DNA from: a virus | IMG/VR virus record: IMGVR_UViG_3300021090_000686 | Coordinates: 1-44,897 of that record | Length of the DNA: 44,897 nucleotides | Reading direction: 5' to 3' (one strand) | Shown: piece after piece, positions 1 to 44,897 of the stretch | How the letters are laid out: the number at the start of each line of letters is the position of its first letter | How positions within the stretch are numbered: the stretch's first letter is position 1 | Notes under the pieces: model-generated | Seen by the model: the letters and a program-made list of their open reading frames with translations, nothing else | The model's database searches: none | Told to the model about the DNA's origin: nothing | Program-made: the position numbers and the translations under genes

Positions 1-147
1 CCTGGCGCAGCACGGTGGCGTCGACGCGGCGCGCGAGGATCCGCGCGCGCTTGCCGTTGCGGTAGAAGTCCCGATCGCTGCCGTGCCAGCGGCCGCCGGC
101 GGGCGTGGTGAGCAGGCCGGCCAGCATATAGTCGCGCTTGCCGCTCT
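1..147. repeat. Terminal direct repeat, left copy
   Basis: Bases 1-147 are repeated at 44751-44897 with a single difference (A at 128, G at 44878). The overlap lies inside the serine-recombinase gene. Joining position 44750 to position 1 restores one uninterrupted reading frame, so this is the overlap of a circular or circularly permuted assembly rather than a functional repeat. The mismatch is synonymous in the recombinase (TAT versus TAC, Tyr). Confidence 0.93.
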
Positions 148-1012
148 GCGTGGTCTTGCGGCGCCGACGCTCGAGCTGCTCGAGGATCCTCGCGGCCTCG
201 GCGTCGGTGATCAGGGGCGTGTGCGTGTCGCGCTTGATCACCCACTCCGCGCGCGGGCGGTGCTTCGGGCCGAGCGTGCCCTTTTCCTTCATGCGATTCC
301 AGACGGTGTGACCGGCGTAAGTGAGGGCGTTGCGCTCCACCTCGATCGCGGCGGACTGCGCGAGTTCGAGGCCGTGGCGCGCCAGCGCCCTCGCGCGCGG
401 GATCCCGGCCGCGCGATCGCGCAGGAAGGCCTGCAGCGTGGGCGCGGCGGGCGACGGCACCAGACGCGACTTCGTCACCGCCTGACCCTCGCGCACCGCG
501 CCGGTGGCCACGTGCTCGAGCTGGTAGCCGATCGGCGCGCGGCCGCCGGCACGAAAACCCGCGCGCACGTTCTCGCGCATGCCGGCGAGGCCCTTCCTTT
601 TCGACACCAGGCTGTGCCACTCGTCGACGCCGTGAAAGACTGCCTTCACGATCGCGCGCTCGGCATCCTCCATCTCCGGCAGGTTCTTGTAGATCACCGT
701 CACCCCGCGCGGGCGGCACTCGCGGTCCTCGAACCAGTAGGCGGCCGCGGCGCGGCGAGCGATGCGCGAGGTGTCGAGCGTGAGCACCATCGACCAGGTG
801 CGGCCCTTCTCGTACAGCGCGGCGAGCAGCGCCTGCAGGCCCGGGCGGTCTTCGTCCTTGCCGGACTCGACGCTGTCGGTGAATTCGGCGACGATCACGT
901 ATCCGCGCGCGGCTGCGAGTTCGCGCAGCTCGCGTAGCTGGACGTCGATCGAAACGTCAGCCCTGTCTTTTGAGCTGCGGCAATAGCAGACGGCGCGCAG
1001 CGTTGGGCTCAA
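1..1012 (-). CDS. Large serine recombinase, N-terminal part (cut by window end)
   Basis: Site-specific serine recombinase, probably the phage integrase. The minus frame opens with TTG at 1012, which overlaps the stop of the upstream 67-aa gene. Near the N-terminus it has the catalytic signature of the family, VCYCRSSKD (Tyr-x-Arg-x-Ser), followed by SIDVQLREL. Further on come LDTSRIARR and a recombinase domain with GGRAPIGYQ. The frame runs off the window at base 1 and continues at 44750, giving about 516 residues over the junction, a usual size for large serine integrases. The TTG start is inferred from the overlap and the position of the catalytic motif, because no in-frame ATG precedes that motif. 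Confidence 0.9.
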   Translation of the reverse strand, partial: MSPTLRAVCYCRSSKDRADVSIDVQLRELRELAAARGYVIVAEFTDSVESGKDEDRPGLQALLAALYEKGRTWSMVLTLDTSRIARRAAAAYWFEDRECRPRGVTVIYKNLPEMEDAERAIVKAVFHGVDEWHSLVSKRKGLAGMRENVRAGFRAGGRAPIGYQLEHVATGAVREGQAVTKSRLVPSPAAPTLQAFLRDRAAGIPRARALARHGLELAQSAAIEVERNALTYAGHTVWNRMKEKGTLGPKHRPRAEWVIKRDTHTPLITDAEAARILEQLERRRRKTTQSGKRDYMLAGLLTTPAGGRWHGSDRDFYRNGKRARILARRVDATVLRQ

Positions 1013-1380: not shown

Positions 1381-1911
1381 TCACTTCACTACCTGATTGC
1401 CGCCGCCGTGGCGCTTTTGCCAACGCGCGAGCAGCGCCTCGTATTTCTCGGTGTCGGCTTCCATGAGGCGGCGGATTGCTGTCACCAGCATGGCGTGGGT
1501 GATGTTGTCCTCTTTGGCGCTCGGGGCCACGATCCGCATGACCTCCACCAGTGGCGACGGGTCGGGTGCAAAGTGGTTCCTCAATGCGGTGGCCTGCTTG
1601 CCGATCGACGCGGTGAGCGGCAGCGACTCCTCGAAGGCCTTGCTCGGGAACAGCTCGAGCTCGCGCAGCACCCGCAGGATCGCCTGGGAGATCTCCAGGC
1701 GGTCGAGCAGCTCCTCGAGCAGCGGGACCTTGGCGGCCTCGCGCGCGATGTTGGCGTGGCGCATGGTGACCAGCATGTTCAGCGACTCGTCCACCAAGCG
1801 CTCGCCGTAGAGCTTCTTCACGTCGCGCGGCAGGTGAGGCGCGCGGCGAGCGACGAAGCGCTGGAAGTCGACGATCGCGCGGTACAGGTCAGTGTCGCTG
1901 TGCAAGCTCAT
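1381..1911 (-). CDS. Avd-like four-helix-bundle protein (DGR accessory)
   Basis: 176 residues. Residues about 7-115 read as a four-helix bundle of the Avd/23S-IVP type: DLYRAIVDF, then HLPRDVKKLYGERLVDESL, a Lys/Glu-rich hinge, LLEELLDRLEISQAILRVL and a last helix ending GKQATALRNHF. Avd proteins form basic pentamers that bind the reverse transcriptase and RNA of diversity-generating retroelements. The bundle is followed by an unusual extension of about 60 residues. The gene lies directly downstream of two lectin-like genes with DGR-type variable ends, the usual place for avd, but no reverse transcriptase follows. Plain four-helix-bundle proteins unrelated to DGRs also exist; the context favours Avd. 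No good ribosome site precedes the ATG. Confidence 0.72.
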   Translation of the reverse strand: MSLHSDTDLYRAIVDFQRFVARRAPHLPRDVKKLYGERLVDESLNMLVTMRHANIAREAAKVPLLEELLDRLEISQAILRVLRELELFPSKAFEESLPLTASIGKQATALRNHFAPDPSPLVEVMRIVAPSAKEDNITHAMLVTAIRRLMEADTEKYEALLARWQKRHGGGNQVVK

Positions 1912-1915
1912 GGCA

Positions 1916-1981
1916 AAAAATCGCGTCGAAAAGGCGCTAGCGCGGAATGGTTAAATGGTCACTCTGCGGACCGCGCGCGCC
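1916..1981. repeat. 66-bp repeat: GC-rich VR end plus palindrome, copy 1
   Basis: 64 of 66 bases match 6836-6901 (differences at 1933/6853 and 1952/6872). Read on the minus strand it covers the last codons of the lectin-like gene (GC-only run ending GTCCGC), its stop, and then a perfect palindrome GCGCTAGCGC (1934-1943) and a T-rich stretch. A GC-rich block followed by a hairpin is the arrangement of the initiation-of-mutagenic-homing site in known DGR targets. Confidence 0.85.
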
Positions 1982-2355
1982 ATGAACTTGCTGACCTTGC
2001 GCCAGTAGTCCTGACCGCCGTAGCCGAAGCCCTGGCCCCAGGCGTAGTCGCTGCCGTCGGCGTACTGCTCATTCGACCAGTAGTAGCGTTTCTGGAACTT
2101 GCCGGCGTGATGCGTCCACAGCATCGCCTGCTCGATGCGGTTCGGGAGATCGCCGCCTTCCTTCTTCGCCCAGGCGAGCGCGTCCTTCCAGTTGATAGCG
2201 GCCTTCTCGCCGGGCAAGAGGATGGTGTGCGTGACCTTGCCGCCGGCGTCGATCGTGCCGCCGACGTAGAGCTCGCCCTTCTTGAGCGCGGGGAGGGCGA
2301 TTTTTACAGCGGAGGCCGCCTTCGGCGGCCGGGTTTTCTGTGCGGGTTTTTTCAT
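1951..2355 (-). CDS. C-type-lectin-like (DUF1566-type) DGR target protein A
   Basis: 134 residues, from ATG at 2355 behind a GAGG ribosome site. A basic Pro/Lys/Ala-rich start (about 1-20) is followed by a DUF1566-like lectin fold: ILLPGE, NWKDALAWAKK, DLPNRIEQAMLW, YYWSNEQYAD, YAWGQGF, then the signature ending ARAVRRVTI. This fold displays the variable residues of DGR target proteins. Its last 32 codons line up without gaps with proteins B (2373-2873) and C (6871-7374); differences fall only at codon positions 1 and 2. The Avd-like gene follows 39 bases downstream. What it binds is unknown. Confidence 0.8.
   Translation of the reverse strand: MKKPAQKTRPPKAASAVKIALPALKKGELYVGGTIDAGGKVTHTILLPGEKAAINWKDALAWAKKEGGDLPNRIEQAMLWTHHAGKFQKRYYWSNEQYADGSDYAWGQGFGYGGQDYWRKVSKFMARAVRRVTI
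1966..2061 (-). other. Putative DGR variable region A
   Basis: 32 codons from an invariant Ala-Asp to the GC-only run coding ARAVR. Compared with the same span in B (2388-2483) and C (6886-6981), 18 nucleotide columns vary, all at codon positions 1 or 2 and none at position 3. Examples are GGT/AAT/TAT, TAC/CGC/AAC and TTC/GGC/TAC. The 18 invariant codons are identical in all three. In 13 of 18 columns at least one copy carries A, as expected from adenine-directed mutagenesis of AAY template codons. Confidence 0.7.
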
Positions 2356-2372
2356 CGCATCACCTCGAATGG

Positions 2373-2873
2373 TTAAATGGATACCCTGCGGACCGCGCGC
2401 GCCATGCCCTTGCTGCCCTTGAGCCAGCGGCCCTGATTGCCGTAGTCGAAGCCCTGGACCCAGGCGTAGCCGCTGTCGTCGGCGGACTGCGTCGAAGACC
2501 AGTACCAGTCCTTGTCGAAGCGCTCGGCCTCGGGTAGCGCCGCGCTGGCCGACCAGGCGAGCAGCAGCTCGCCGCGGCTCGGGAGATACCAGATCACTTC
2601 GCCGCCGATCTCCAGAGCTCGGATCTTCTGCGCGAGCTGGCTGCCGGCCTCGGCCATGGCGCCGGTGTTGTGAAGGCCGTCGAAGTCGGAGAGCGCGCCC
2701 TCGACTTTCTTCTGGCTGTTGCTCCACACCGTGGCCGGGAATTCAGTGGCTTTCGGGGCGACGATGAGGGCGAAGGGCTGCTGTTCGAGGAAGAAGCGGC
2801 CAATCAGGATCCCGCCGGCAATGGGCGTGCCGATCGGGGCGTTGGCGGGAGTGAGGGATTGCGGGGTGTTCAT
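2373..2873 (-). CDS. C-type-lectin-like (DUF1566-type) DGR target protein B
   Basis: 166 residues, ATG at 2873 with an AAGGAGAA ribosome site. The N-terminal part (GTPIAGGILIGRFFL, VAPKATEFPATVW) is typical of DUF1566-related phage proteins. The lectin-like core has YLPSRGELLLAW, WYWSSTQSAD and YAWVQGF and ends MARAVRRVSI. It is only distantly related to A and C outside the last 32 codons, so the three are not recent whole-gene duplicates, yet that end shares every invariant codon. It lies 17 bases upstream of gene A. Confidence 0.8.
   Translation of the reverse strand: MNTPQSLTPANAPIGTPIAGGILIGRFFLEQQPFALIVAPKATEFPATVWSNSQKKVEGALSDFDGLHNTGAMAEAGSQLAQKIRALEIGGEVIWYLPSRGELLLAWSASAALPEAERFDKDWYWSSTQSADDSGYAWVQGFDYGNQGRWLKGSKGMARAVRRVSI
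2388..2483 (-). other. Putative DGR variable region B
   Basis: Counterpart of regions A and C. After the shared GC-rich block its last codons differ slightly (AGG GTA TCC instead of AGA GTG ACC), and it lacks the palindrome that follows A and C. It may therefore be a less active or older target. Confidence 0.62.
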
Positions 2874-2927
2874 GGTGTTCTCCTTCGGTGAATGCGGGTT
2901 GTCGATCGACTCAAGACCAGCGGGTGA

Positions 2928-3287
2928 TCATGCGTAAACCCCGTCGCGCAGGCGGTCGAGCAGGGCATAGACGGGCTCGATCCGGCCGGCCTCGAGTAGT
3001 TGGCTCGGGCTGCGGCCGTAGAGCTCGGGGTGCGGCGCCTGGATCCAGGCCTTCGCCGAGGCCTCGTCGCCGTACAGAAACATCACCTGGCGGTGGAAGC
3101 GCTCGAGCACCAGCTGCGGCATCAGGGTGTGGCCGCCGCGGTCCCAGTGCTCGATGAGGTCCTCGCAGCGGCTGCAGACGCCGGCGTGGTCCTCCGCGTT
3201 GAAGCGCAGCCACCAGCAGCCGGTGCCGCCTTGCTCGCAGGCGTGGACCTCGTCGCAGCCGCAGCCGATGCAGACGTTCAGGTTCAT
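2928..3287 (-). CDS. Zinc-finger protein with MbcA/ParS/Xre-type antitoxin domain
   Basis: 119 residues in two parts. Residues about 5-45 form a cysteine-rich zinc-binding module (CIGCGCDEVHAC, GC, CSRC). Residues about 65-119 match the toxin-binding domain of MbcA/ParS/Xre antitoxins (DUF2384): FLYGDEASAKAWIQ, ELYGRSPSQLLEAG, and the end EPVYALLDRLRDGVYA. Such antitoxins normally pair with a RES-domain NAD-degrading toxin, but none is found in the window. It may act as an orphan antitoxin or DNA-binding regulator. Its ATG overlaps the stop of the upstream P-loop gene (ATGA). Confidence 0.75.
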   Translation of the reverse strand: MNLNVCIGCGCDEVHACEQGGTGCWWLRFNAEDHAGVCSRCEDLIEHWDRGGHTLMPQLVLERFHRQVMFLYGDEASAKAWIQAPHPELYGRSPSQLLEAGRIEPVYALLDRLRDGVYA

Positions 3288-3547
3288 GGTTGCTTCCTGC
3301 GCCGCAACCGCATCAGCGCGGTGGCCACGTCGAGCACCGTGGCGCCCGGTGTCGGGAAAGGCGGCTCGCGGTTGGTCAACGCCAGGTCGCCCGGCTGCAG
3401 CTGCTGTCCTTCCCAGGGATCCACCAGCCTCGTGCAGCCGAAGTGCTGCATCAGCTCCTGGGCGCGCCTGGTCTTCCCGCTCGCCATCGGGCCGTGCACG
3501 ATGACGACGCCGTAGACCCTCGGAAGAAACTCGCCGGAGTTGCTCAT
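3284..3547 (-). CDS. Small P-loop protein
   Basis: 87 residues with a clear Walker A motif near the N-terminus (VVIVHGPMASGKTRRAQEL), then VDPWEGQQL and a short basic C-terminus (RLRRRKQP). It looks like a minimal nucleotide-binding domain without a recognisable partner domain. Both ends overlap neighbours by ATGA (ParB upstream, zinc/MbcA-like protein downstream), so the three are one translationally coupled unit. It lacks the ParA deviant Walker motif and is too short to be a ParA. Confidence 0.65.
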   Translation of the reverse strand: MSNSGEFLPRVYGVVIVHGPMASGKTRRAQELMQHFGCTRLVDPWEGQQLQPGDLALTNREPPFPTPGATVLDVATALMRLRRRKQP

Positions 3548-5208
3548 TTTTTCTTGCCCTTGCCCTTTTTCGCCGCCGGTTTCTTCGCGGCGCCCGGCTT
3601 CTTTTTCGTCAGCGTTTTCGCTTGGCTCTTTGCGCTAGTGGGGGCCTTGGCCGCCTGGTCCTTGGCCGCCTCGCGCACGTCGGCCTCCACCTTCTTGAGG
3701 TCCACCTTCACGCCGGCGAGCAGCCTGGCAGCTTCGCGCTGGTCGTAGCCGACGCGGGCCGCGCAGATCAACGTGGCGACGAAGGCGCGAGTGAGATCGG
3801 GCTCGCTGAGCGTCTCCACCTTTTTCATCACCACCGATGGGGAACTGACGCCGTCCGTCTTGGGGAGGCCGAGAATGGCGTCGAGCTCGATGTTTGCCTC
3901 GAAGTTGTAGTCGTCGACGAGGTGCTCGAACAGATACAGCAGTTCCTTCCTGCCAATCTTGGCAGGGATAGTCTTGAAGATCGCCAGCGCCTGCTGGCGG
4001 GCGATCTCCTCCTTGAGCTTCCCGTCCTCGTTCTTGCCGGCGCCCTGCTTGCGGGTTCTGGCCGTGCTCTCGGCTACCTTTTGCCGGTGGGTCTTGATGC
4101 CGCGCTCGTTGAGTACCTCGGTCACGGCGCTCGAGCGCACGACCTCGATCAGGCGCTTGTCTTTCGGGTGCTGCGCCAGGTCGATCAACTCCGGATTCTT
4201 GGCGAGGATCTCGCGCACCTTGCGGCTCTTCGGGTCGTCGTAGCAGGTGGAATCCAGCGACACGTAGCCGCCGGCGACTTGATCGGTGCTGTATTTATTC
4301 GGGAAGATCGCGCTGGCGTCCTTGCCGGTGATCACCTTCTTGCCGGCCTTCTCCGCGGCGAGGCGTTTGCGCTCGAAGTGCGCGTCGCGTTTGTCGGCGA
4401 AACATTTCGGGTCGGTGCAGACGTCTGCATCCTTGACGTCGGCGAACAGGTCCTGCTGATTGCCGGTGCGCTTGGGGCAGGCGGTGCAGGTACCCGCCTT
4501 TGGCACCAGGCTGCCGTCGTCGAGGGCGAAGGGCGCCCCCTTCAGCTTGAGCATGTAGTTGCGCAGGATCACCTGGTGGGCTTCGCGGTAGCTCAGCGGC
4601 TCGCACCACTTGTCGCCGGCGATGTCCTTCAGGGCCGCGCGCTGCGTGTCGTGGTGGCCGATGCGCGCCACCAGCAGCGCCTTCGAGGCGTCGAGCTCGC
4701 CGGCGTAGAAGGCCTTGCGCGCCTCCGGGCACAGCGCGAGCAGCTTGGTGCGCGCATAGACGTAGCTGCGCGACTTGCCGACCATGCCGGCGACCACGTC
4801 GGCATTGATCTTCTTCAGCTTCATCAGCTCCTCGTAGCCTTCCGCTTCCTCGAGCTCGTGCAGGCCTTCACGCTGCAGGTTCTCGATCAGCTGGATCTCG
4901 AGCACCTGGTCGGCGGTGAGGATGCAGACGCTCGCGCGGATCTCGGTCAGCCCTGCCAGCTTGGCGGCCAGCCAGCGGCGCTCGCCGGCGACGAGCTCGT
5001 ACTTGTCCGCCAGGCCGGCCGGCCGCACCACGATCGGCTGCAGGACGCCGACTTGCTTGATGCTGTCGGCCAGGTCCTGCATGAGCTTTTTGTCGAAGCG
5101 CGCACGGCGCAATTCCTGGATGTGGGTGGTACTCGGCGTGATCGCGCCGAGCGGGAGGATCTCGTCGGTGGGCTTGGCGAGGACGGCGGCGGGGGTCGGG
5201 GCGTTCAT
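3544..5208 (-). CDS. ParB/RepB/Spo0J-family DNA-binding protein
   Basis: 554 residues. The ParB N-terminal domain (about 15-110) has LVAGERRWLAAKLAG and IQLIENLQREGLHELEEAEGY. A helix-turn-helix follows at about 125-160 (VVAGMVGKSRSYVYARTKLL). A middle zinc-finger-like part has CTACPKR and CTDPKCF. After a long helical region it ends in a histone-H1-like Lys/Ala tail of about 25 residues. It may help maintain or silence the prophage or act as a regulator. No ParA gene is present. One copy of the scattered palindromic 16-mer lies inside the gene (4415-4430). Confidence 0.88.
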   Translation of the reverse strand: MNAPTPAAVLAKPTDEILPLGAITPSTTHIQELRRARFDKKLMQDLADSIKQVGVLQPIVVRPAGLADKYELVAGERRWLAAKLAGLTEIRASVCILTADQVLEIQLIENLQREGLHELEEAEGYEELMKLKKINADVVAGMVGKSRSYVYARTKLLALCPEARKAFYAGELDASKALLVARIGHHDTQRAALKDIAGDKWCEPLSYREAHQVILRNYMLKLKGAPFALDDGSLVPKAGTCTACPKRTGNQQDLFADVKDADVCTDPKCFADKRDAHFERKRLAAEKAGKKVITGKDASAIFPNKYSTDQVAGGYVSLDSTCYDDPKSRKVREILAKNPELIDLAQHPKDKRLIEVVRSSAVTEVLNERGIKTHRQKVAESTARTRKQGAGKNEDGKLKEEIARQQALAIFKTIPAKIGRKELLYLFEHLVDDYNFEANIELDAILGLPKTDGVSSPSVVMKKVETLSEPDLTRAFVATLICAARVGYDQREAARLLAGVKVDLKKVEADVREAAKDQAAKAPTSAKSQAKTLTKKKPGAAKKPAAKKGKGKKK

Positions 5209-5420
5209 GCGGTATTCCTCCTTGGTTTGCGGTAGCCGGGCTGGCCGTAGGTGGCGCCGCGGCGATTGCCGTACATGACTAAGTCGCCGCTGGCGAGCAA
5301 GCGTTTGAAGGTCGTCCTGGAATCTTCCTTGCCGCGCGCAAGTGCTTCGAGCACGTTGCGTTTGCGTGGGCCGCCGTTGTCCGGATGCACGAGCCTCAGG
5401 ATCCGCGAGCGCAGGCCCAT
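5205..5420 (-). CDS. Small winged-helix-like phage protein
   Basis: 71 residues starting MGLRSRILRLVHPDNGG; ATG at 5420 directly behind the stop of the upstream membrane-protein gene. The segment from RNVLEALARG through TTFKRLLASGDLVMYG reads like a small winged helix, followed by a Gly/Arg/Pro-rich basic tail. A longer upstream frame exists but is the shadow of the neighbouring gene. Its stop overlaps the parB start by ATGA. Function unknown; DNA binding is a guess from the fold. Confidence 0.6.
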   Translation of the reverse strand: MGLRSRILRLVHPDNGGPRKRNVLEALARGKEDSRTTFKRLLASGDLVMYGNRRGATYGQPGYRKPRRNTA

Positions 5421-5421
5421 G

Positions 5422-5769
5422 TCAGTGGATGTCGCTACGCCGCGCGTTCTGGATGACGAGCAGCTGCGCGAGGACCGCGTCGGCGATGCGCTTTTCCGCC
5501 GCCGCCTGGTCCTGAAGACGCTTCTTGCCGAGGGTGCGCGCGTGCATCCACATACTCGAGGTGATGCCGAACGGGCCGCCGGCAAGGTAGGCGGCCATCT
5601 CTCTCGGGCCGGCATCCGGCACCAGCTTGTAAAGAAAGAGATAGGCGCCGCCGATCAAGAAGCTGGTGAAGAAGGCGGCGTAGTAGTGCCCGCCGGTGAC
5701 GTTTTGCTGCTGGAAGCCCAGAGCTAAAACCACCACGAAGGTGCTGGCAAAGAGTGCGAGCTCGATCAC
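5422..5769 (-). CDS. Phage membrane protein of conserved unknown type
   Basis: 115 residues from GTG at 5769, which overlaps the stop of the preceding reading frame (GTGA). Two or three membrane segments: VIELALFASTFVVVLALGF and then YYAAFFTSFLIGGAYLFLYK, with a third weaker one around YLAGGPFGITSSMW. A charged helix forms the C-terminus. I know similar proteins from the accessory regions of other proteobacterial phages, without an assigned role. The longer open frame upstream has no good start and overlaps another frame. Confidence 0.65.
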   Translation of the reverse strand: MIELALFASTFVVVLALGFQQQNVTGGHYYAAFFTSFLIGGAYLFLYKLVPDAGPREMAAYLAGGPFGITSSMWMHARTLGKKRLQDQAAAEKRIADAVLAQLLVIQNARRSDIH

Positions 5770-5911
5770 CGGCTGCCCCGCGGCTCGATGTAGATGAATC
5801 CGTCGCGCTTCACCTGGCAGAACGGCCCGGGCGCGGCGGTGGCGTTCCACGCGGCGCGCCAGGTGAGACCGGAATGCCAATAAGGGGCAGGGCGCGGAAG
5901 AAGTGGCGCAT
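5766..5911 (-). pseudogene. Small frameshifted gene or frameshift-expressed peptide
   Basis: ATG at 5911, behind GGAGATCCCG, starts MRHFFRALP. A second frame then gives a protein-like stretch from YWHSGLTWRAAWNATAAPG through FIYIEPRGSR, ending at 5766 with a stop that overlaps the next gene's GTG. The two pieces lie in different frames; the change falls at a CCCC run near 5885. One indel, or a -1 slip, would join them into about 48 residues. The coupled GTGA at the end argues that the second frame was genuinely translated. Confidence 0.4.
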
Positions 5912-5924
5912 CGGGATCTCCTGA

Positions 5925-6161
5925 TCAGGCATGGACAGGCTCAGCGGTCAGCTGGCGGACGAAGCCGAGCAACGCCGCGGGATCGCGCCGGCGGCCGAGG
6001 CGCGCGGGCCGGCAGCCGTCGCCGGTCTTGCGGTAGACGACCCAGGCGCGCACGTACTTGCCGCGCACGCGGTCGGACACCTCGACGATGAACAAACGGT
6101 GCGCCCTCGCGAGCTCGCGAGCGTCCTCGAGCGGGTTGTCATCCGCGTCTTTCGTTCCCAT
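5925..6161 (-). CDS. Small phage protein, unknown
   Basis: 78 residues starting MGTKDADDNPLEDARELARA (ATG at 6161, inside the end of the upstream gene). The middle (FIVEVSDRVRGKYVRAWVVYR) looks beta-rich and the C-terminus is basic. No family recognised. The overlaps fit a tightly packed operon. Confidence 0.55.
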   Translation of the reverse strand: MGTKDADDNPLEDARELARAHRLFIVEVSDRVRGKYVRAWVVYRKTGDGCRPARLGRRRDPAALLGFVRQLTAEPVHA

Positions 6162-6363
6162 CGGCGGCTTGGATCTCGGCCTGCTGCGCATCTGGCAGCA
6201 GCGGATACCAGGGCGAGGTGGGCGGCACCGCCATGACGAAGCGCAGGCTCAAGCGCCTGTCGTGGAACTCGACCAGCTTGTGACCCGGGCACAGCGCGCG
6301 CGCCTCGGCGAACTGGTCGGCGCCCTTGCCCTCGGCGGCCGCGGCGGAGAGCTCAGGCTGCAT
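6139..6363 (-). CDS. Small phage protein, unknown
   Basis: 74 residues, MQPELSAAAAEGKGADQF onward. It overlaps the downstream gene by 23 bases and the upstream one by 11, as usual in this operon. Alternating hydrophobic residues (RRLSLRFVMAVPP) suggest a small beta-containing protein. No recognisable motif. Confidence 0.5.
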   Translation of the reverse strand: MQPELSAAAAEGKGADQFAEARALCPGHKLVEFHDRRLSLRFVMAVPPTSPWYPLLPDAQQAEIQAADGNERRG

Positions 6364-6547
6364 GGTTCAGGCGCCGGTCCACCACGGCCGCCGCATCGCG
6401 AAAATGCCGATCCAGGAGAATGGCGGTGCGCACGAAGTCCTCGACCGCCGCCGCGGCGACGTTCTCGGGCTTGACGCGGCGCTCCTTGGCGTGGCGCCGC
6501 AGTTCGGTCAGCGTGCTGTAGGTGACTTCAATCGTGAGAATGGGCAT
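6353..6547 (-). CDS. Small helical protein, possibly ribbon-helix-helix
   Basis: 64 residues: a short beta-like start (MPILTIEVTYSTL) followed by two helices (TELRRHAKERR and AAAVEDFVRTAILLD). This resembles ribbon-helix-helix DNA-binding proteins of the Arc/CopG type, but I cannot confirm it. The position inside the lysogeny operon would suit a small regulator. Confidence 0.5.
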   Translation of the reverse strand: MPILTIEVTYSTLTELRRHAKERRVKPENVAAAAVEDFVRTAILLDRHFRDAAAVVDRRLNHAA

Positions 6548-6833
6548 CGGGGACTTTCGGGCGTGGTTTCTTCGGGTAGGCGCTCTGCGAACCGGCGTAG
6601 GTGCAGCCGTCGCGCACCACCTTGCCGTCGCGCCTCACGTAGGCGATGAGCAGGACCTCGTGCTCGGTCGGCTCGCGGCAGGGACCGAGTGCAGATGTCT
6701 GGACCGCGGGCACTTGCGGGGTGAGCCACGCGGCGAGGTCGTCCTGGGCGTAGAGGAAGAGCGCGATGAGGAGCACGGCGAAGAAAAGTTCCGCCCTGGC
6801 GCCGGTGCTGAGGATCGGTGTGGGGGTTGGCAT
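6528..6833 (-). CDS. Single-pass membrane protein, unknown
   Basis: 101 residues. One membrane segment (ELFFAVLLIALFLYA, about 15-29) is followed by a soluble part with two cysteines and a basic, histidine-containing tail. The ATG at 6833 lies directly after the T-rich end of the 66-bp repeat that follows lectin-like gene C, the same relation that the Avd-like gene has to gene A. It contains a copy of the scattered palindromic 16-mer (6689-6704). Confidence 0.55.
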   Translation of the reverse strand: MPTPTPILSTGARAELFFAVLLIALFLYAQDDLAAWLTPQVPAVQTSALGPCREPTEHEVLLIAYVRRDGKVVRDGCTYAGSQSAYPKKPRPKVPDAHSHD

Positions 6834-6835
6834 GG

Positions 6836-6901
6836 AAAAATCGCGTCGAAAAAGCGCTAGCGCGGAATGGTCAAATGGTCACTCTGCGGACCGCGCGCGC
6901 C
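6836..6901. repeat. 66-bp repeat: GC-rich VR end plus palindrome, copy 2
   Basis: Near-identical copy of 1916-1981, following lectin-like gene C. It contains the palindrome GCGCTAGCGC at 6854-6863 downstream of the GC-only coding run. Conservation across the stop codon and into non-coding sequence, while upstream coding sequence has diverged, points to selection or conversion acting on DNA rather than on protein. Confidence 0.85.
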
Positions 6902-7374
6902 AGGTACTCGTTGCCCTTGCGCCAGTTGCCCTGATAGCCGTTGCCGAAGCCCTGGAGCCAGGCGTAGCCGCTGGCGTCGGCGTACTGCTCGCCAAGCCAG
7001 TACACCTCGTTCTCGAACTCGGCTTTGAGGTAGGCGAAGAGCATCGCGCCCTCGATGCGGTTCGGGAGATAGCCGCCCTGGTCCACCGCCCACTCCATCG
7101 CCGCCTGCCAGTTTTTGCCACGAGCAAAACCGGGCAACAGGATCGTGTGGACGAGCTTGCCGTCGGGCCCGCAGTGCGCGCCGAGGTATTTCTCGCCCGG
7201 CTTGAGCTGCGGCAATTGATCAATCCGCGCCTTCCATGCGTTGAATTGCTCAGCCCAGTCCAGGGGCTCCGGGGACTTCTGTTCATCACTCTGCCGCTGC
7301 AAGTGCCGCTGCACGATTTCTCGCGCGGCGATCTCGTCGACGATGATGGGCAGGCCGTTGAGCGTGAGATTCAT
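6871..7374 (-). CDS. C-type-lectin-like (DUF1566-type) DGR target protein C
   Basis: 167 residues, ATG at 7374 behind GAGGA. A helical N-terminus (MNLTLNGLPIIVDEIAAREI, then a charged segment) precedes a lectin-like domain parallel to protein A: LKPGEKYLGAHC, ILLPGFARGKNW, YLPNRIEGAMLF, VYWLGEQYAD, YAWLQGF, ending LARAVRRVTI. The shared stretch around HTILLPG shows synonymous third-base changes between A and C (ACC/ACG, CTC/CTG, GGC/GGT), whereas the last 32 codons show none. The gene sits directly downstream of the envelope protein at 7383-8198. Confidence 0.8.
   Translation of the reverse strand: MNLTLNGLPIIVDEIAAREIVQRHLQRQSDEQKSPEPLDWAEQFNAWKARIDQLPQLKPGEKYLGAHCGPDGKLVHTILLPGFARGKNWQAAMEWAVDQGGYLPNRIEGAMLFAYLKAEFENEVYWLGEQYADASGYAWLQGFGNGYQGNWRKGNEYLARAVRRVTI
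6886..6981 (-). other. Putative DGR variable region C
   Basis: Third variable region. It retains the most AAC/AAY-type codons of the three (AAC, TAT, AAC, AAC, TAC at the variable positions) and is followed by the GC-rich block and palindrome. By this measure it is closest to the inferred template. Confidence 0.68.
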
Positions 7375-8329: not shown

Positions 8330-8899
8330 CTATCGTCTTGATTTTGCTAGGGCTGCGTCAACGGCGGTTAGAAACGGCGCGAACTTTGAGTTCACGATGG
8401 CTTCACCGGAACCAGGGCCAAAGCTGGACACCGTGTAGTCATTGATCCCGCCAACACGCATTTTGACAACGTTTGCGCGAGCGACAACTCGAAACTGGTC
8501 CAGAGGCATCTCGAATCGCCTGAAGCTGGCACCATGTTCGAAATGGGTCAGCGCACTGGCTGGCTTCAGCTTGTCAAAAATCTTGCCGTCCGCATTAAAC
8601 GCCGCGTCCTGAATGGCGCGGATCTGCATGGCGTGCCCAACGGTCACGAATATTAGGTCGGAATACTTCTCCATCCACTCGAAACCGAGCGTGTGGAAGT
8701 CCTCTGAAAGCCCGCTGGCGGCGCTGATCGGGGCTTGTCGAATAATCTGCCTCCCGTCGAATTGATCGACGATGGTCTGCGCAGAGGGGGTAAGTGCGTC
8801 GTTCACCCCTACGCATCCCATGAGCCAGTTGACGCAGCTGGTGAAAAGGATCACACCCAACCACCAGCTTAAAGGTTTAGGCCGCTTGTTCAACATCAT
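8330..8899 (-). CDS. Predicted lipoprotein, possible lysogenic conversion gene
   Basis: 189 residues. A basic start and hydrophobic stretch (WWLGVILFTSCVNWLMGC) end in a lipobox with Cys29 as the probable lipidation site. The mature part is mixed alpha/beta (GGINDYTVSSFGPG). The gene is visibly less GC-rich than its neighbours, suggesting separate acquisition. It overlaps the end of the repressor gene, so it should be made in the lysogen together with the repressor. A membrane-anchored superinfection-exclusion role is plausible but not shown. Confidence 0.65.
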   Translation of the reverse strand: MMLNKRPKPLSWWLGVILFTSCVNWLMGCVGVNDALTPSAQTIVDQFDGRQIIRQAPISAASGLSEDFHTLGFEWMEKYSDLIFVTVGHAMQIRAIQDAAFNADGKIFDKLKPASALTHFEHGASFRRFEMPLDQFRVVARANVVKMRVGGINDYTVSSFGPGSGEAIVNSKFAPFLTAVDAALAKSRR

Positions 8900-9233
8900 C
8901 AGGTCCTCTCACAACGTACCTCGATTCCTGCTCCGCAACGCGCATGATGTGATCGCGACCGCGTTCATCGCTGTGGCGATAATTGTCGAGCAGCTTGGCT
9001 TCGCGCTCCTCTGAAGGGTTGTCCTCCAGGGTAAGAATGTAGGCTGCCGACACACCGAGCACTGGGGCAAGTTTTTTCGCTTCGTCGACGCCGATCATGT
9101 TGCGCCCATGTTCCCAATTGCTCAGCCGGTTAAACGTGATGCCCGGAATCAGCGTCTCGACATCTTTTAGCGTCAGTCCCTTTTTTTCTCTCGCTGCTTT
9201 AATGCGGCGTCCTGCTTCCAGCTTTGTACCCAT
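8877..9233 (-). CDS. CI-like repressor (HTH only)
   Basis: 118 residues from ATG at 9233; the longer upstream frame would run through the operator and the divergent gene. The N-terminus has an XRE-type helix-turn-helix: RRIKAAREKKGLTLKDVE, FNRLSNWEHGRN and KKLAPVLGVSAAYIL. The charged C-terminus of about 50 residues is too short for an S24 peptidase, so it would not be inactivated by RecA-dependent self-cleavage like lambda CI; induction must use another route. Divergent from a Cro-like gene across the operator at 9280-9317. Confidence 0.8.
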   Translation of the reverse strand: MGTKLEAGRRIKAAREKKGLTLKDVETLIPGITFNRLSNWEHGRNMIGVDEAKKLAPVLGVSAAYILTLEDNPSEEREAKLLDNYRHSDERGRDHIMRVAEQESRYVVRGPDDVEQAA

Positions 9234-9279
9234 GTAGGCACGGTAGCCGTCGAATCGTGGAAGGTCATTCAACGAGTCC

Positions 9280-9317
9280 TGTAAGCGCAGGGTTGCGAGT
9301 TTACAGAATTTGTGTAA
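9280..9317. promoter_or_regulatory. Immunity operator between repressor and Cro-like gene
   Basis: TGTAA (9280) - N16 - TTACA (9301) - N7 - TGTAA (9313). The 17-mer TTACAGAATTTGTGTAA has the same 5-7-5 inverted-repeat form as TTACATAAAGTCTGTAA at 8229-8245. It lies 10 bases before the probable GTG of the Cro-like gene and about 50 bases upstream of the repressor start, as expected for a lysogeny switch. Confidence 0.68.
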
Positions 9318-9327
9318 GTCTTGTCGG

Positions 9328-9543
9328 GTGACCCTGCCCGAATTCATCCGTAGGCACGGCGATGCGCATTGCGCGGCGCTGTTCGATGTGAAGGTGCGCA
9401 CGGTAGCTAGCTGGCGCCGCGGGGAGAACTTCCCACGGGCCAGAAAGGCGAGAGAGATCGTCGACCGCACCAACGGACAGGTCGGTATGGAAGACATCTA
9501 CGTGGCGACCAGCCTGTCGGCCGATCTGGAGACAGCAGCATGA
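9328..9543 (+). CDS. Cro-like DNA-binding protein
   Basis: 71 residues if started at GTG 9328 (a TTG at 9310 is also open). The helix-turn-helix-like part is HCAALFDVKVRTVASWRRGENFP, which resembles YdaS/Cro-type proteins that recognise DNA through a short turn with SWRRG. It is divergent from the CI-like repressor, the classical cro position. The first early rightward gene. Confidence 0.7.
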   Translation: MTLPEFIRRHGDAHCAALFDVKVRTVASWRRGENFPRARKAREIVDRTNGQVGMEDIYVATSLSADLETAA

Positions 9544-10273: not shown

Positions 10274-12370
10274 CTGACCGATACCACAGAGCGCCAGCGC
10301 TCAAGCTGGCGCCCCATTCTGCCGGTTCCGGAGGATGCTCCGCCAGCCAAGTTCCACCACGCGGTGCGCGGGGAGCCACGCAAGATTTTTGCCTACCGCG
10401 ACGTCGAGGGGCTGGCGCTGGGCTACGTGTGCCAGTTCATCCGTTCGGCGGGCGGGGTGCAGCACATCACGCGCACCTGGTGCGAGAACGAGCAAGACCG
10501 ATCCCGCGCCTGGAAGTGGATCCAGTTCCACAAGCTGCGGCCCGTGTACCGCGCGGAGCATCTCGATACGCAGCGGCTGCAGATCGTGCTGGTGGTGGCG
10601 GACGAGTGGTCGGCCGACGAGCTCGCGCCGAAGTTCGACGAGAAGGGCAGGGCGCTGGATCTGAATCACCCGTTCCTCGCCTACGACGTGGTGAGCTGGC
10701 CCGGCGGCCGGTCGAAGGTGGGCGAGGTGGACTGGTCGCCGTTGAAGGGCCGGGTGTGCGCGATCTGGTTGCCGCATTCCGCGGAGCGTTTCAAGGTGGC
10801 AAAGGGCGATCCGCAGTCGGGCGCGCTGCTGCCGACGGAAAAGCAACCCTGGCGCGTGGCCGCGCGCGCGCTGATGGAGACGCTGCGGCACTTCGGCGCG
10901 ATCCCGATCTCGATCATCGAGGCGGAGACCACCGAGGAGTTGCCGCAGGGCTGGGAGCCGATCGCGGCGCTGAACGCGCACTGGGACCTAGGGCGCATCT
11001 TCGAGTGGATGCAGGCGCACTTCGCCACCTCTGCCGAGATCGCCGAGGCGCGGCGCCTCGCCTCGGGCGAGCCGAAGGCCTCCGGCGAGGTGGAGGGCGA
11101 TTGGACAGCGACGCTGCTGCGCAAGGACGGCACCGGGCCGCTCTTGGCCGAGCTGCACAACGTGCGCATGATCCTGTCGAACCATCAATCCTGGCGCGAG
11201 GTGGTGTGGCTCGACCAGTTCGCGCATCGCGTGATGAAAGCAAAGCCGCCGCCTTATCCGAAGAGCGAAATCGGGGTGTGGTCGGATCACGACGACACGA
11301 TGTCCGCGGACTGGCTGCAATCGCAATGCCAGATCCTGCGGCTGAAGTCCTCGCTGGTTGCCGAAGGCGTGCATGCGGTGGCGCACCTCAACGGCCGCAA
11401 CCCGCTTGTCGAGTATCTGAAGGCCTGCCGCAAAAACTGGGACAAGACGCCGCGCATCGATCGGTGGCTGCAGACCTACCTCGGCGCCGGCGTGCCCGAG
11501 GAGTCGGACACGCAGGCCGATATGGATCGCCTGGACGAATACCTGCGCCTGGTCGGCCGCATGTGGCTCAGGGGCGCGGTGGCGAGGGCGCTGCAGCCTG
11601 GCATCAAGTTCGACTACGTGCTGATCCTCGAGGGGCAGCAAGGCCTGGGCAAATCGAGCGCGCTGGCGGTACTGGGCGGCGAATGGGCCATGGATACGCC
11701 CTTCGACCTCGGCAACAAGGAAGGCTGGGAATCGCTGCAGGGCGTCTGGATCGTCGAGATCGCGGAGCTCGACAGCATGAACAAGGCCGACGTGCGCACT
11801 GCGAAGACGTTCTTTTCTCGGCGCAAGGACCGCTTCCGGTTGCCCTATGCCCGGCGCAGCGCGGAGTTTCCCAGGACCTTCGTCTTCGGCGGCACCACCA
11901 ACGAGAACGAGTATTTCCGCGACCGGACCGGGAACCGCCGCTACCTCCCGGTGCACGTCAAGCGATTCTACGAGCGCGCGGCCCTCGAGCGGGATCGGGA
12001 CCAGCTGTTCGGCGAAGCGGTGGCTGCGTTCGAGGCTGGCGAAGCCCTGTATTTCGCGCCGGCCGAGGAATTGCTGGTGCGCGTCGAGCAACGCTTGCGC
12101 ATGCGCCAGGACCCGTGGTTCGGCTCGATCGCGCGCTGGCTGCTCTCACCCGAGCGAGTCATCGAACAGCAGATGTCGGAACCGATCACCATCCGGCGCA
12201 TCTTGTCCCAGGCGGTCGGCATGGAGATCAGCCGCGCCGACGAGCACGGCCATGCGACGCGCGTGGGTCACGTCCTTGCGGAGCTTGGTTACGATCGGAA
12301 AGAGAACAAGTCCATCCCCGAGCGGTATCACTACGTGAAGCGCCAAGGCTTCAAGGAAGGCGACGAATGA
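10274..12370 (+). CDS. VapE-family primase/helicase-like replication protein
   Basis: About 698 residues if started at CTG 10274; the first GTG (10364) would drop the conserved-looking SWRPILPVPEDAPP. GAGG 7 bases before the CTG supports it. The N-terminal third resembles primase-associated domains (YRDVEGLALGYV). The C-terminal half is a VapE/DUF5906-type ATPase: Walker A GQQGLGKSS near residue 455, Walker B-like WIVEIAELDSM, then the family signature FVFGGTTNENEYFRDRTGNR. VapE-type proteins serve as replicative helicases in many phages. The repeat-rich region that follows is the likely origin. Confidence 0.85.
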   Translation: MTDTTERQRSSWRPILPVPEDAPPAKFHHAVRGEPRKIFAYRDVEGLALGYVCQFIRSAGGVQHITRTWCENEQDRSRAWKWIQFHKLRPVYRAEHLDTQRLQIVLVVADEWSADELAPKFDEKGRALDLNHPFLAYDVVSWPGGRSKVGEVDWSPLKGRVCAIWLPHSAERFKVAKGDPQSGALLPTEKQPWRVAARALMETLRHFGAIPISIIEAETTEELPQGWEPIAALNAHWDLGRIFEWMQAHFATSAEIAEARRLASGEPKASGEVEGDWTATLLRKDGTGPLLAELHNVRMILSNHQSWREVVWLDQFAHRVMKAKPPPYPKSEIGVWSDHDDTMSADWLQSQCQILRLKSSLVAEGVHAVAHLNGRNPLVEYLKACRKNWDKTPRIDRWLQTYLGAGVPEESDTQADMDRLDEYLRLVGRMWLRGAVARALQPGIKFDYVLILEGQQGLGKSSALAVLGGEWAMDTPFDLGNKEGWESLQGVWIVEIAELDSMNKADVRTAKTFFSRRKDRFRLPYARRSAEFPRTFVFGGTTNENEYFRDRTGNRRYLPVHVKRFYERAALERDRDQLFGEAVAAFEAGEALYFAPAEELLVRVEQRLRMRQDPWFGSIARWLLSPERVIEQQMSEPITIRRILSQAVGMEISRADEHGHATRVGHVLAELGYDRKENKSIPERYHYVKRQGFKEGDE

Positions 12371-16261: not shown

Positions 16262-16834
16262 ATGAAGCTGAACCTCGGCTGCGGCGTCAACCATTTGCAG
16301 GGCTACGTGAACGTGGACGTGCACCCGGCGGCGAAGCCGGACGTTGTCTGGGACCTAGAGAAATTTCCCTGGGGCATCGCGACGATCTTCGGCCACACGT
16401 TGCCGGAGTCGAGCGTCGATGAAGTGATGCTGAGCCACGTCCTGGAGCACCTCGGGCGCGATCCGGTGGTGTTCGTGGGGATCTTCCAGGAGCTCTACCG
16501 GGTCTGCAAGCCGGGCGCGCTGGTCAAGATCGTGGTGCCGCACCCGCGGCATGACAACTTCCTTGGCGATCCGACGCACGTGCGCGTGGTCACGCCGCAG
16601 GTGCTGTCGCTATTCTCGAAGAAGCTCTGCGCCGAGTGGGCCGCGAAGGGGGCGGCGAACACCCCGCTCGCGGTGTACGCCGACGTGGACTTCGAGATCC
16701 GCGACGTGCGCATGATCGTGGAGCCGGCCTTCGCCAAGAAGCCGAACCTGGAGGAGCTCGCGCGCCACTGGAACAACGTGGTAGTTGAGTACCAGATGGT
16801 CCTCGAGGTGATGAAGCCGGCGGTTGGCGCATGA
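16262..16834 (+). CDS. SAM-dependent methyltransferase
   Basis: 190 residues behind an AGGAGG site. A class I Rossmann methyltransferase: MKLNLGCGVNHLQGYVNVD is the SAM-binding motif, then VMLSHVLEHLGRD and a post-motif strand CKPGALVKIVVPHP. This type methylates small molecules, sugars or polysaccharide ends more often than DNA. It overlaps the methyltransferase/glycosyltransferase fusion that follows (ATGA). The pair is inserted between terminase and head-tail genes, where phages often carry cargo. The substrate cannot be told from sequence. Confidence 0.82.
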   Translation: MKLNLGCGVNHLQGYVNVDVHPAAKPDVVWDLEKFPWGIATIFGHTLPESSVDEVMLSHVLEHLGRDPVVFVGIFQELYRVCKPGALVKIVVPHPRHDNFLGDPTHVRVVTPQVLSLFSKKLCAEWAAKGAANTPLAVYADVDFEIRDVRMIVEPAFAKKPNLEELARHWNNVVVEYQMVLEVMKPAVGA

Positions 16835-18393
16835 CCTGGTACAACGATCCGGAGCGCAATCGCGCCTTCCATGAAGGTGAGTCGGCGAAGATTCGCTTCG
16901 AGCTCGTGCCCTACACGCGCGGCGTCGGGCTCGAGCTGGGCTGCGGGCCCTGGCGCGCGTTCCCGCACTTCATCGGCATCGATGCGAATCGCTACGAGAG
17001 CCCGCTCGGGCCGTCGCTGGTGATGGACTGCCAGAGCCTCGCCTGCTTCTCGGACGAGGCCTTCGACTTCATCTACAGCTCGCACCTGCTCGAGCACCTG
17101 GTGGACACTGCGGCGGTGCTGCGCGAGTGGTGGCGCGTGATCGAAGCGGGCGGGCACCTGCTGCTCTACCTGCCGCACAAGGACCTGTACCCGAACATCG
17201 GCGAGCCGGGCGGCAACGCGGACCACAAGCACGACTTCCTGCCCGAGGACATCGTGGCGGGGATGCGCGCGGTGGCGCCGGACTGGGACCTGGTGGCCAA
17301 CGAGACGCGCGACCAGGAGGACGAGTACTCGTTCTTCCAGGTGTTCCGCAAGCTCGCGCCGGGATCCGGGCAGCTGGAGAGCTGGAAGCTGCCGAAGCCG
17401 GCGAAGACCGCCGCTGTGCTGCGCCCCGGCGCCTACGGCGACGTGCTCTGGACCTCGTCGCCGATCCGGCACCTGAAGGCGCAGGGCTACCACGTCACGC
17501 TTTACACCGAGGTGCGCGGCGAGGAGGTGATGCGGCACAACCCGGACGTCGACCGCTTCGTGGTGTTCGGCGCACAGCAGATCCCGAAGGGCTTCAGCTC
17601 CGAGTACTTCGCCTCGGAGGCGAAGAAGTACGACCTGGCAATCAACCTGGTGGAGTCGGTGGAGCGCAACGCGCTCGCCTGGCCGACGGACACGCGCTAC
17701 TTCTGGCCGGACCGGGTGCGGCGCAAGGTGTTCGCCGGCAACTACCTCGAGCTGATCCACGACCTGGCCGGCGTGCCCTACGAGTTCCACCAGCGCTTCC
17801 ACGCGACGCCGGCGGAGCTCGAAGAGGCGAGGACCTGGCGCCGCGACAACTGCGGCGAGGAGCGCATGGTGGTGGTGGCGCCGTCGGGATCCACGGCGCC
17901 CAAATTCTGGCCGCACGTCGAGGCCTTCGCGCAGCTGCTCGCCGCGGAGAAGACCCACGCCGCGATCCTGGGCGACTTGCGCGAGATGAAGATCCCGGCC
18001 GGGCCCTACGTGCACCCGATCGGCATGGCCTGGCCGATACGGCGGGCGATGAGCCTGGCGCTCGTCGCCGACGCGGTGGTGGGCGAAGAGACGGCGCTGC
18101 TCAACGCAGTGGCCCAGGAGGAGATGCGCAAGGTGGTGCTGCTGTCGCACTCCACGCGGGAGAACCTGACGAAGCACTGGGTGAACACCGTGGCGCTGAG
18201 CGGGGCGGTGCCCTGCTATCCGTGCCACCGGATCCACCAGACCTTCGACCACTGCCGGCGCGACGAGACCTCGGGGACGGCGGCGTGCCAGGCGGCGCTG
18301 TCGGCGTTCGAGGTCCTGCGGACGATGAAGCAAGTCGGCGGCTTCTGTGTGATGAAAGCGAGCCACCTGCTCGCGGACGAAGTCGGGAGCTGA
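16831..18393 (+). CDS. Methyltransferase / GT9-type glycosyltransferase fusion
   Basis: 520 residues in two domains. Residues 1-180 are a second class I methyltransferase (GVGLELGCGPWRAFPHFIGI, SSHLLEHLVD, WRVIEAGGHLLLYLPHKD). From about residue 190 it resembles glycosyltransferase family 9 (heptosyltransferase-like): AVLRPGAYGDVLWTSSPIRH at the start, VVVAPSGSTAPKFWP at the nucleotide-sugar side, and a late Asp/Glu site around VADAVVGEETALLNAV. The cysteine-rich end (PCYPCHRI, DHCRRD) is unusual for the family. Together with the preceding gene it may modify a glycan on the virion or on host LPS. Confidence 0.8.
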   Translation: MTWYNDPERNRAFHEGESAKIRFELVPYTRGVGLELGCGPWRAFPHFIGIDANRYESPLGPSLVMDCQSLACFSDEAFDFIYSSHLLEHLVDTAAVLREWWRVIEAGGHLLLYLPHKDLYPNIGEPGGNADHKHDFLPEDIVAGMRAVAPDWDLVANETRDQEDEYSFFQVFRKLAPGSGQLESWKLPKPAKTAAVLRPGAYGDVLWTSSPIRHLKAQGYHVTLYTEVRGEEVMRHNPDVDRFVVFGAQQIPKGFSSEYFASEAKKYDLAINLVESVERNALAWPTDTRYFWPDRVRRKVFAGNYLELIHDLAGVPYEFHQRFHATPAELEEARTWRRDNCGEERMVVVAPSGSTAPKFWPHVEAFAQLLAAEKTHAAILGDLREMKIPAGPYVHPIGMAWPIRRAMSLALVADAVVGEETALLNAVAQEEMRKVVLLSHSTRENLTKHWVNTVALSGAVPCYPCHRIHQTFDHCRRDETSGTAACQAALSAFEVLRTMKQVGGFCVMKASHLLADEVGS

Positions 18394-20561: not shown

Positions 20562-21482
20562 ATGGACGACCACACCACAATCAGCACGTTCCAGCTTTTC
20601 AAGATGTTCCCCGACAACGAATCGGCCCGCGTCTACCTTGAGGCGCGGCTGTGGCCTTCCGGCCCGCGTTGCCCGGTCTGCGCTGGCCTTGACCGGATCA
20701 CGACTCGCACCAACGGCTACTACCGCTGCAACAAGTGCGCGGAGGACTTCACCGTTCGCACCGGCACAGTCATGGAGCGCAGCCACGTTCCGCTGCACAA
20801 GTGGCTCTACGCCATGTACCTGCTGGTCACGGCCCGCAAGGGCATCAGCAGCCTGCAACTCTCCAAGGAAATCGGCATCACGCAGAAGTCGGCGTGGTTC
20901 GTTCTCGGGCGGCTGCGCGAGGCTTGCGGCTCGGACTTCAAAAGCCTGTCGGGCATCATCGAAGTGGACGAAACCTACATCGGCGGAAAAGAGTCCGCGA
21001 AACACGCCAGCAAGCGGCTCAAGCAGGGGCGCGGCGCTGTGGGAAAGTCCGCCGTCCTCGGGATGCGTGAGCGCGGCGGTCGCACCGTCGCCATGCCTGT
21101 CGAGGACGTTAATACGGCGAACCTGCACCGGGCGATCCACACCCACATCGAACCCGGCAGCATGATCCACAGCGACGAACACGCTGGCTACCGTGGCCTT
21201 GGAGGGCTGTTCTTCGGGCGCGAGACGGTCAACCACAGTGCCGGGGAATACGTCCGCAACGGCGTCCACACGAACAGCATCGAATCCGTTTGGGCGGTCC
21301 TGAAGCGCGGGCTGCACGGCGTCTACCACCACGCCAGCGACAAGCACCTTGCCCGCTACGTCAACGAGTTCACCTTCCGTCTGAACGAGGGCAACGTGAA
21401 GCGCCACACCTTCCAGCGGTTGAACAGCCTGATTGCCGCCACGGCCAAGCGCCGCATCACCTACAAGGAACTGACCGCATGA
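20562..21482 (+). CDS. IS1595-family transposase
   Basis: 306 residues, full length for the family. An N-terminal zinc ribbon (CPVCAGLDRI, RCNKCAEDF) precedes a helix-turn-helix (ISSLQLSKEIGITQKSAWF). The catalytic domain shows IIEVDETYIGG with the first Asp, MIHSDEHAGYRGL with the second, and HTNSIESVWAVLKRG with the final acidic/Asn position. It cuts and joins the element ends to new DNA. No frameshift or stop, so it should be active. Confidence 0.94.
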   Translation: MDDHTTISTFQLFKMFPDNESARVYLEARLWPSGPRCPVCAGLDRITTRTNGYYRCNKCAEDFTVRTGTVMERSHVPLHKWLYAMYLLVTARKGISSLQLSKEIGITQKSAWFVLGRLREACGSDFKSLSGIIEVDETYIGGKESAKHASKRLKQGRGAVGKSAVLGMRERGGRTVAMPVEDVNTANLHRAIHTHIEPGSMIHSDEHAGYRGLGGLFFGRETVNHSAGEYVRNGVHTNSIESVWAVLKRGLHGVYHHASDKHLARYVNEFTFRLNEGNVKRHTFQRLNSLIAATAKRRITYKELTA

Positions 21483-21607
21483 AGCCGCCCAAGGAACTGG
21501 ACCGAATCGTGGACAAGGTGCTGGCGTACAAAGTGCCAGCCCGCTCGCCCAAGGCGAAGAAGCGCCAGCGCAAGCGCAGGAAGGTTCGGAGGGAGTCATA
21601 TATATAA
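21479..21607 (+). CDS. Small basic protein at IS end
   Basis: 42 residues from ATG 21479, overlapping the transposase stop (ATGA). MKPPKELDRIVDKVLAYKVP, then a run of Lys and Arg. Its last codons form part of the right inverted repeat. It may bind DNA or RNA, or be an unselected frame; the coupled start favours translation. Confidence 0.5.
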   Translation: MKPPKELDRIVDKVLAYKVPARSPKAKKRQRKRRKVRRESYI

Positions 21608-44211: not shown

Positions 44212-44897
44212 CTAGGCGGCCAGCTTGGCCCGGCGCTCGATGGCGCCGGGGTATTGCTCGGATCGCTGTGGGGACGCCAGCAATACCCCTGCTGCACCGC
44301 CGAAAGCCGGGATCCGGTACCGGAGGACCACCTCGGCGGGGTCGGCCGGGTCGAGCTCCACGCGCTCGAGCAGCTGCAGGAGCTGGTCGCGGAGCTCGGG
44401 CACGCTCCGGCCGGCCGCCAGGTCCACCGCCAGGGTGCGCAGCGCTTGGCGCACGTCTTCCTCGCCGATCGCCTGTAGGCCCGCCTGGGCCTCGAGCTCG
44501 CGCTCGATCGCGGCGAGCTCCGCGGCCGCGGCCTCGCGTTCCTTCTCCACCTCTCCCATCGTTCTGAGCAGTGGCACCGCGACGTCGGCGCCGGCGGCCA
44601 GGTCCGCCAGCCGGCGGATCTTGCGGTCCTGCGCCTCGAGGCGCCGGCGCAGTTCCGCCGGCCGGCGCGCGTCCGGCATGCCGAGCAGCCGCACGCGCAT
44701 GTGCTCGAGCAGCAGCCCGACCAGCGCGTCGCCGGCGAGGTCCTCGTGCACCTGGCGCAGCACGGTGGCGTCGACGCGGCGCGCGAGGATCCGCGCGCGC
44801 TTGCCGTTGCGGTAGAAGTCCCGATCGCTGCCGTGCCAGCGGCCGCCGGCGGGCGTGGTGAGCAGGCCGGCCAGCATGTAGTCGCGCTTGCCGCTCT
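44212..44897 (-). CDS. Large serine recombinase, C-terminal part
   Basis: Continuation of the recombinase read across the circular junction. It holds the end of the recombinase domain (from LAGLLTTPAGG on), a long Glu/Arg/Ala-rich coiled coil of about 100 residues, and a short basic tail. The zinc beta-ribbon position, normally containing CxxC pairs, has no cysteines here (LLTTPAGG where LLxCxxCG is usual), so the ribbon either folds without zinc or is degenerate. An 11-bp inverted repeat just downstream (44135-44179) is a candidate recombination site. Confidence 0.88.
   Translation of the reverse strand, partial: SGKRDYMLAGLLTTPAGGRWHGSDRDFYRNGKRARILARRVDATVLRQVHEDLAGDALVGLLLEHMRVRLLGMPDARRPAELRRRLEAQDRKIRRLADLAAGADVAVPLLRTMGEVEKEREAAAAELAAIERELEAQAGLQAIGEEDVRQALRTLAVDLAAGRSVPELRDQLLQLLERVELDPADPAEVVLRYRIPAFGGAAGVLLASPQRSEQYPGAIERRAKLAA
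44751..44897. repeat. Terminal direct repeat, right copy
   Basis: Second copy of the first 147 bases, differing only at 44878. It gives a unit genome of about 44,750 bp. The single synonymous difference means either two co-existing variants of the phage or one read error. Confidence 0.93.

Follow-up and report, generated by a model that had tools for sequence, protein, structure and literature searches.

A phage locus with three diversified DGR targets and an Avd gene, probably left by recent loss of the template repeat and reverse transcriptase

The window, as the whole stretch of DNA analyzed here is called, is a virus record of 44,897 bases in which 147 bases recur at both ends with a single mismatch. 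Because this repeat closes a serine recombinase frame that runs across the end join, the genome is probably circular and, as a first-pass annotation made from the sequence had supposed, complete. The features relevant to this report are as follows.

2-1012, minus strand: part of a serine recombinase gene (Pfam Resolvase/Recombinase), with the remainder at 44212-44897 over the circular join
1381-1911, minus strand: avd, extended at its 3' end; Avd proper spans codons 1-120 (1552-1911), and codons 121-176 are unrelated
1551-1552, no strand assigned: inferred junction at which the template repeat (TR) and reverse transcriptase (RT) are absent, GACCCGTCGCCA/CTGGTGG
1934-1943: 10-bp perfect palindrome GCGCTAGCGC, seen in the sequence downstream of the variable region (VR) of gene A; also at 6854-6863, downstream of gene C
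1951-2355, minus strand: gene A, a DGR-type target of the DUF1566/Lcl_C type with a predicted C-type lectin fold (Pfam Lcl_C, E=6e-5)
1964-2068, minus strand: VR of gene A, from its blastn match to the TR of the related contig L001 (10573-10677) and variable columns that fall on TR adenines
1966-1980, minus strand: 15-nt IMH-like core GCGCGCGCGGTCCGC in gene A; also at 2388-2402 and 6886-6900
2373-2873, minus strand: gene B, a DGR-type target (Pfam Lcl_C above cut-off, 39.5 bits)
2385-2495, minus strand: VR of gene B, from blastn to the L001 TR and the comparison of variable columns
6871-7374, minus strand: gene C, a DGR-type target and distant paralogue of A (50% identical)
6884-6988, minus strand: VR of gene C, from blastn to the L001 TR and the comparison of variable columns

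The three targets are located in a leftward region that also holds a ParB-like gene and the recombinase, outside the tail genes, and this recombinase is homologous to one lying downstream of the DGR RT in L014 and L016. Elsewhere in the window, the packaging region encodes, between the terminase and portal genes (16831-18393), a protein of 520 residues with a weak methyltransferase match restricted to residues 71-120. A transposase-like gene, ISXO2-like and by inspection of IS1595 type, stands between the portal and head genes (20562-21593) and is 78% identical to one at 8429-9460 of the related contig L002, where it separates the counterparts of targets B and A; L002 has no such gene at the window's site, so this element moves among these phages.

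Assignment of the targets to a lectin-like class, first proposed from the translations, agrees with the Pfam Lcl_C profile, which matches gene B over its cut-off and genes A and C more weakly, and with the AlphaFold model of gene C, whose best predicted matches are the C-terminal domain of Legionella Lcl (8q4e) and C-type lectins. Fold comparison was used here because sequence searches of the PDB returned no match for Avd and a weak Lcl match only for target B. Orthologues of genes A and B occur in both L001 and L002, at 75-80% and 77-80% identity, respectively. The genes were initially described as sharing their last 32 codons with no third-position variation, a statement that holds for codons -37 to -6, where the codon table gives 18 variable nucleotide columns, 13 of them including A and none at position 3, but not for the five codons that precede the stop, just beyond the TR-homologous part, in which third positions do differ (AGA/AGG, GTG/GTA). 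The synonymous divergence claimed for the upstream part of the genes is plain in the comparison of A with C, in which 31 of 75 third positions differ upstream of the VR and 0 of 35 inside it (Fisher P=6e-7). Many phages have DUF1566 genes and no RT, and the three targets could be ordinary paralogous lectin genes, in which selection or gene conversion, and not a DGR, maintains the similarity of the tails; the lack of third-position change in the VRs beside such divergence upstream speaks against this.

The VRs end in a conserved, GC-rich IMH, the core of which shows no difference among the seven VRs of the three phages (window, L001, L002) or between these and the L001 TR; in each it lies at the 3' end. 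A stem-loop in the VR flank gains no support from folding, as single-strand folds are no better than those of shuffled sequences, and the palindrome GCGCTAGCGC follows A and C, is missing after B, and is present in the A flanks of L001 and L002. Approximately 45 non-coding bases after the VRs of A and C (1911-1965 and 6833-6885), which include the palindrome and are lacking after B, are nearly identical despite only 50% identity between the two proteins, which suggests a functional or co-copied element.

The gene at 1381-1911 matches PHROG 3206, "Avd protein of DGR", with E=3.7e-13, and scores 17.6 bits against Pfam bAvd, under the cut-off of that profile. Its AlphaFold model is a four-helix bundle with a helical tail, which Foldseek matches with probability 1.00 both to Avd of BPP-1 (4dwl; TM-score by target length 0.83-0.89) and to DGR ribonucleoprotein structures, while the Foldseek E-values are modest and the top matches are other members of the bundle family (2gsc, 2rld). 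The PHROG and 4dwl matches together identify an accessory Avd gene beside the targets, as had been suggested. Over codons 1-120 the protein shares 85% identity with L001 Avd, which stops two residues further on, and the window protein is as constrained as its L001 counterpart and evolves at the same rate (dN/dS about 0.24-0.33).

Evidence on the origin of the variation came from a scan of IMG/VR with this Avd, which yielded L001 and L002, contigs that both derive from a single sample. In L001, target B', target A', Avd, an A-rich repeat that constitutes the TR (10573-10677) and an RT (PF00078, E=3.8e-15) are contiguous in this order. The VR of B' differs from this TR at 15 sites, all 15 of which are adenines, and that of A' at 16 sites, 15 of which are adenines. 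For the window VRs, the same TR stands in for the ancestral template, although it comes from a relative and departs from the window backbone at some non-A positions. Of the 19 columns that vary among these VRs, 18 coincide with TR adenines; the nineteenth is not a TR adenine, but one window VR has A there. With 30 adenines in 102 columns, such coincidence has a hypergeometric P of 3e-11, and the claim of a single A-rich template behind all three targets is upheld. The agreement with an independent TR refutes the reading as ordinary paralogues, which we regard as scarcely credible. Between phages, VR dS is 0 or near 0 and dN about 0.24-0.33, while dS in the gene bodies is 0.23-0.32; where non-A positions distinguish the phages, the VRs within a genome match one another, which is the pattern expected from a separate TR in each phage.

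No RT or template accompanies these genes in the window, in keeping with the first-pass annotation: an RVT_1 profile search of the record gave no match, tblastn with seven DGR RTs gave no credible match, and a search for the VR/TR backbone that allowed three mismatches at most recovered the three VRs only. The cassette consists of DGR target and accessory genes without RT or TR, carries DGR output, and by the criteria tested is not a functional DGR. Homology to L001 ends at 1552, near the end of avd, where L001 and L014 run on into TR and RT. Because the similarity of Avd to its relatives runs through codon 120 and then gives way to unrelated sequence, TR and RT were probably deleted at this junction. 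The junction contains no RT fragment, unlike those of L002 and of Pseudomonas phage D14O described below, so that replacement by another segment is as possible as a simple deletion.

A further explanation is that the record is chimeric or that assembly skipped the TR-RT segment, so that the real phage would have a complete DGR. A TR that is 77-79% like the VRs is a repeat liable to interrupt short-read assembly, the end repeat carries a mismatch, and the avd extension has no match among phages; this extension, however, is an open frame of 56 codons that is modelled as helical with fair confidence, and real losses of TR and RT occur in two independent relatives, one of them a named phage. An assembly artefact is therefore considered very unlikely.

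In the first of these relatives, L002, an in-frame fusion links residues 1-57 of Avd to the final residues of the RT at a GCGCGA microhomology that both ends have in common, and ~1.5 kb is gone, including the TR and most of the RT. In the second, D14O, and in three prophage loci (L166, L170, L171), Avd is intact, there is no TR, and RT residues 328-369 are all that remains, a remnant of the last 42 RT codons. TR and RT were lost independently in L002 and in the D14O-type prophages. A survey that started from Avd found an RT with at least 150 aligned residues in 73 of 80 loci; the other seven comprised three cut by a contig end and four with a truncated RT (L124, L166, L170, L171), so that Avd without RT is uncommon but recurrent.

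We favor, at roughly 80%, the explanation that the window contains a DGR whose engine, the TR and RT, was recently deleted. The mechanism of TR copying and VR replacement is known from BPP-1. In the ancestor, target B would have been followed by target A, avd, TR and RT, the usual arrangement, and C would have been an additional target some 4.5 kb off. The TR RNA would have been copied by an Avd-RT complex that placed random bases at adenines, and the cDNA would have replaced the VRs at the IMH, a step judged here from its sequence signature only. A rearrangement would then have joined avd codon 120 to unrelated sequence, with loss of TR and RT, leaving three targets as fixed, already diversified lectin-like binders and an Avd without a partner. 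The deletion itself, its recency and the present inactivity of the system are what we infer from these observations. That no VR column varies in a way untraceable to adenine points to a recent loss, and the equal rates of the window and L001 Avd fit this timing.

The first-pass annotation had left open whether the system is a remnant or is served in trans; the deletion-type junctions of the window, L002 and the D14O-type loci favor the former, and the latter, in which the VRs are still diversified by an RT and TR residing in the host, in a different prophage or in a relative that co-infects, is unlikely. An intact, constrained Avd and VRs that have accumulated no non-A variation would be expected under rewriting in trans as well as after a recent deletion, and the identical IMH cores also suit a helper. 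As to a donor, a strict VR/TR backbone pattern found nothing in IMG/VR, a looser one found L001 and L002 only in IMG/VR and nothing in GTDB genomes (one genome per species, 84,980 species), these searches being weak since they used exact patterns, and a search with target B for host prophages returned no relative. L001 itself is ruled out as a helper, since TCG at -33 to -31 and other non-A bases of its TR are missing from all window VRs. Text searches of PMC8144416, PMC12875486, PMC10743442 and PMC6199706 gave no case of diversification in trans.

Pseudomonas phages with targets of the Haboob family, the template of which is a different TR from the window's, bear on the same question; an RVT_1 match is missing in 17 of the 24 phage records checked. 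In four independent pairs of RT-less phages drawn from groups that share a VR allele (30-2/MIJ3/Paride/Deifobo, 30-3/Callisto and Cassandra/Ettore), 1 of 128 adenine sites and 14 of 264 other sites differ, whereas the RT-bearing pair Haboob and phPA-G shows 25 adenine-site differences over two targets and 0 elsewhere. On this contrast the pattern in RT-less VRs reads as decay, not ongoing mutagenesis, and it weighs against diversification in trans. This reading calls for caution in that, between allele groups of the jumbo phages at the same locus, VRs differ by about 17-34% and gene bodies by only about 4-9%; some derived non-A bases are common to different groups, which argues against re-templating.

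One RT-less jumbo phage, PA5oct (L106, 901-1383), supports a helper, as its VR departs from the Haboob TR at a single internal non-A site and otherwise shows almost purely adenine-site change; its last base also differs, as it does in the target-1 VRs of Haboob and phPA-G. The gene body and flanks of PA5oct are as near to its relatives as these are to one another, while the VRs of the relatives are different and decayed. Because its VR looks fresh, it is possible that it was recently refreshed by recombination or by a helper DGR in trans. The corresponding proposal for the window, that the phage outsources diversification by keeping targets, IMHs and Avd and borrowing RT and TR from a prophage or co-infecting relative, is improbable; if true, borrowed RT and TR would make hypervariation a resource common to several phages.

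Genes with DUF1566 domains about 81-89% identical to the Haboob DGR target are found in records without RVT_1 (L097-L112), namely Pseudomonas phages FBPa42, FBPa19, D3, PMG1, phi_D3, U7 and U9 and nine Wroclawvirus jumbo phages of 285-288 kb, and these genes carry DGR-derived VRs under the annotation "hypothetical". In Paride and Deifobo, the target gene is unannotated and reverse-strand ORFs are called in its place. D3 orf68 (L111) has a short frameshift at the VR start relative to the otherwise identical VR of phi_D3 and PMG1, reflecting a sequencing error or a pseudogene.

If the engine was deleted as we propose, phages discard the mutagenic component of a DGR yet keep its products, repeatedly and by simple deletions. 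The RT-less phages would form a natural series from fresh (window, D14O) to decaying (D3, Wroclawvirus), along which loss of the adenine signature might serve as a clock and diversification in trans could be tested. DGR-type targets also occur in large, apparently RT-free jumbo phages, where they are annotated only as hypothetical proteins.

The window shares adenine-specific VRs, a GC-rich IMH core, the Avd fold and C-type-lectin-fold targets with DGRs of the order target-avd-TR-RT, as found in L001, L014, Pseudomonas phages Haboob and phPA-G, Burkholderia phage Magia and the prototype BPP-1, and two of its targets and avd are orthologous to those of L001. It departs from them in lacking TR and RT, in its third target 4.5 kb away and in the 56-residue extension of avd. 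Like the RT-less D14O, D3, PMG1 and Wroclawvirus (PA5oct-like) phages, it has DGR-derived VRs in a genome without RT; D14O likewise retains avd but, unlike the window, keeps the last 42 RT codons, while the jumbo phages keep the target only. Orphan DGR targets without RT or TR have been described in Treponema denticola isolates and were interpreted by the authors as remnants (PMC4891356). There, too, VR-bearing targets were kept after loss of the core, in bacterial chromosomes, in contrast to the phage genome, intact avd, three VRs and deletion junctions in relatives seen here. Orphan DGR targets are therefore known already, and what is new is the combination of intact avd and three fresh VRs in a phage genome, together with a visible series of losses.
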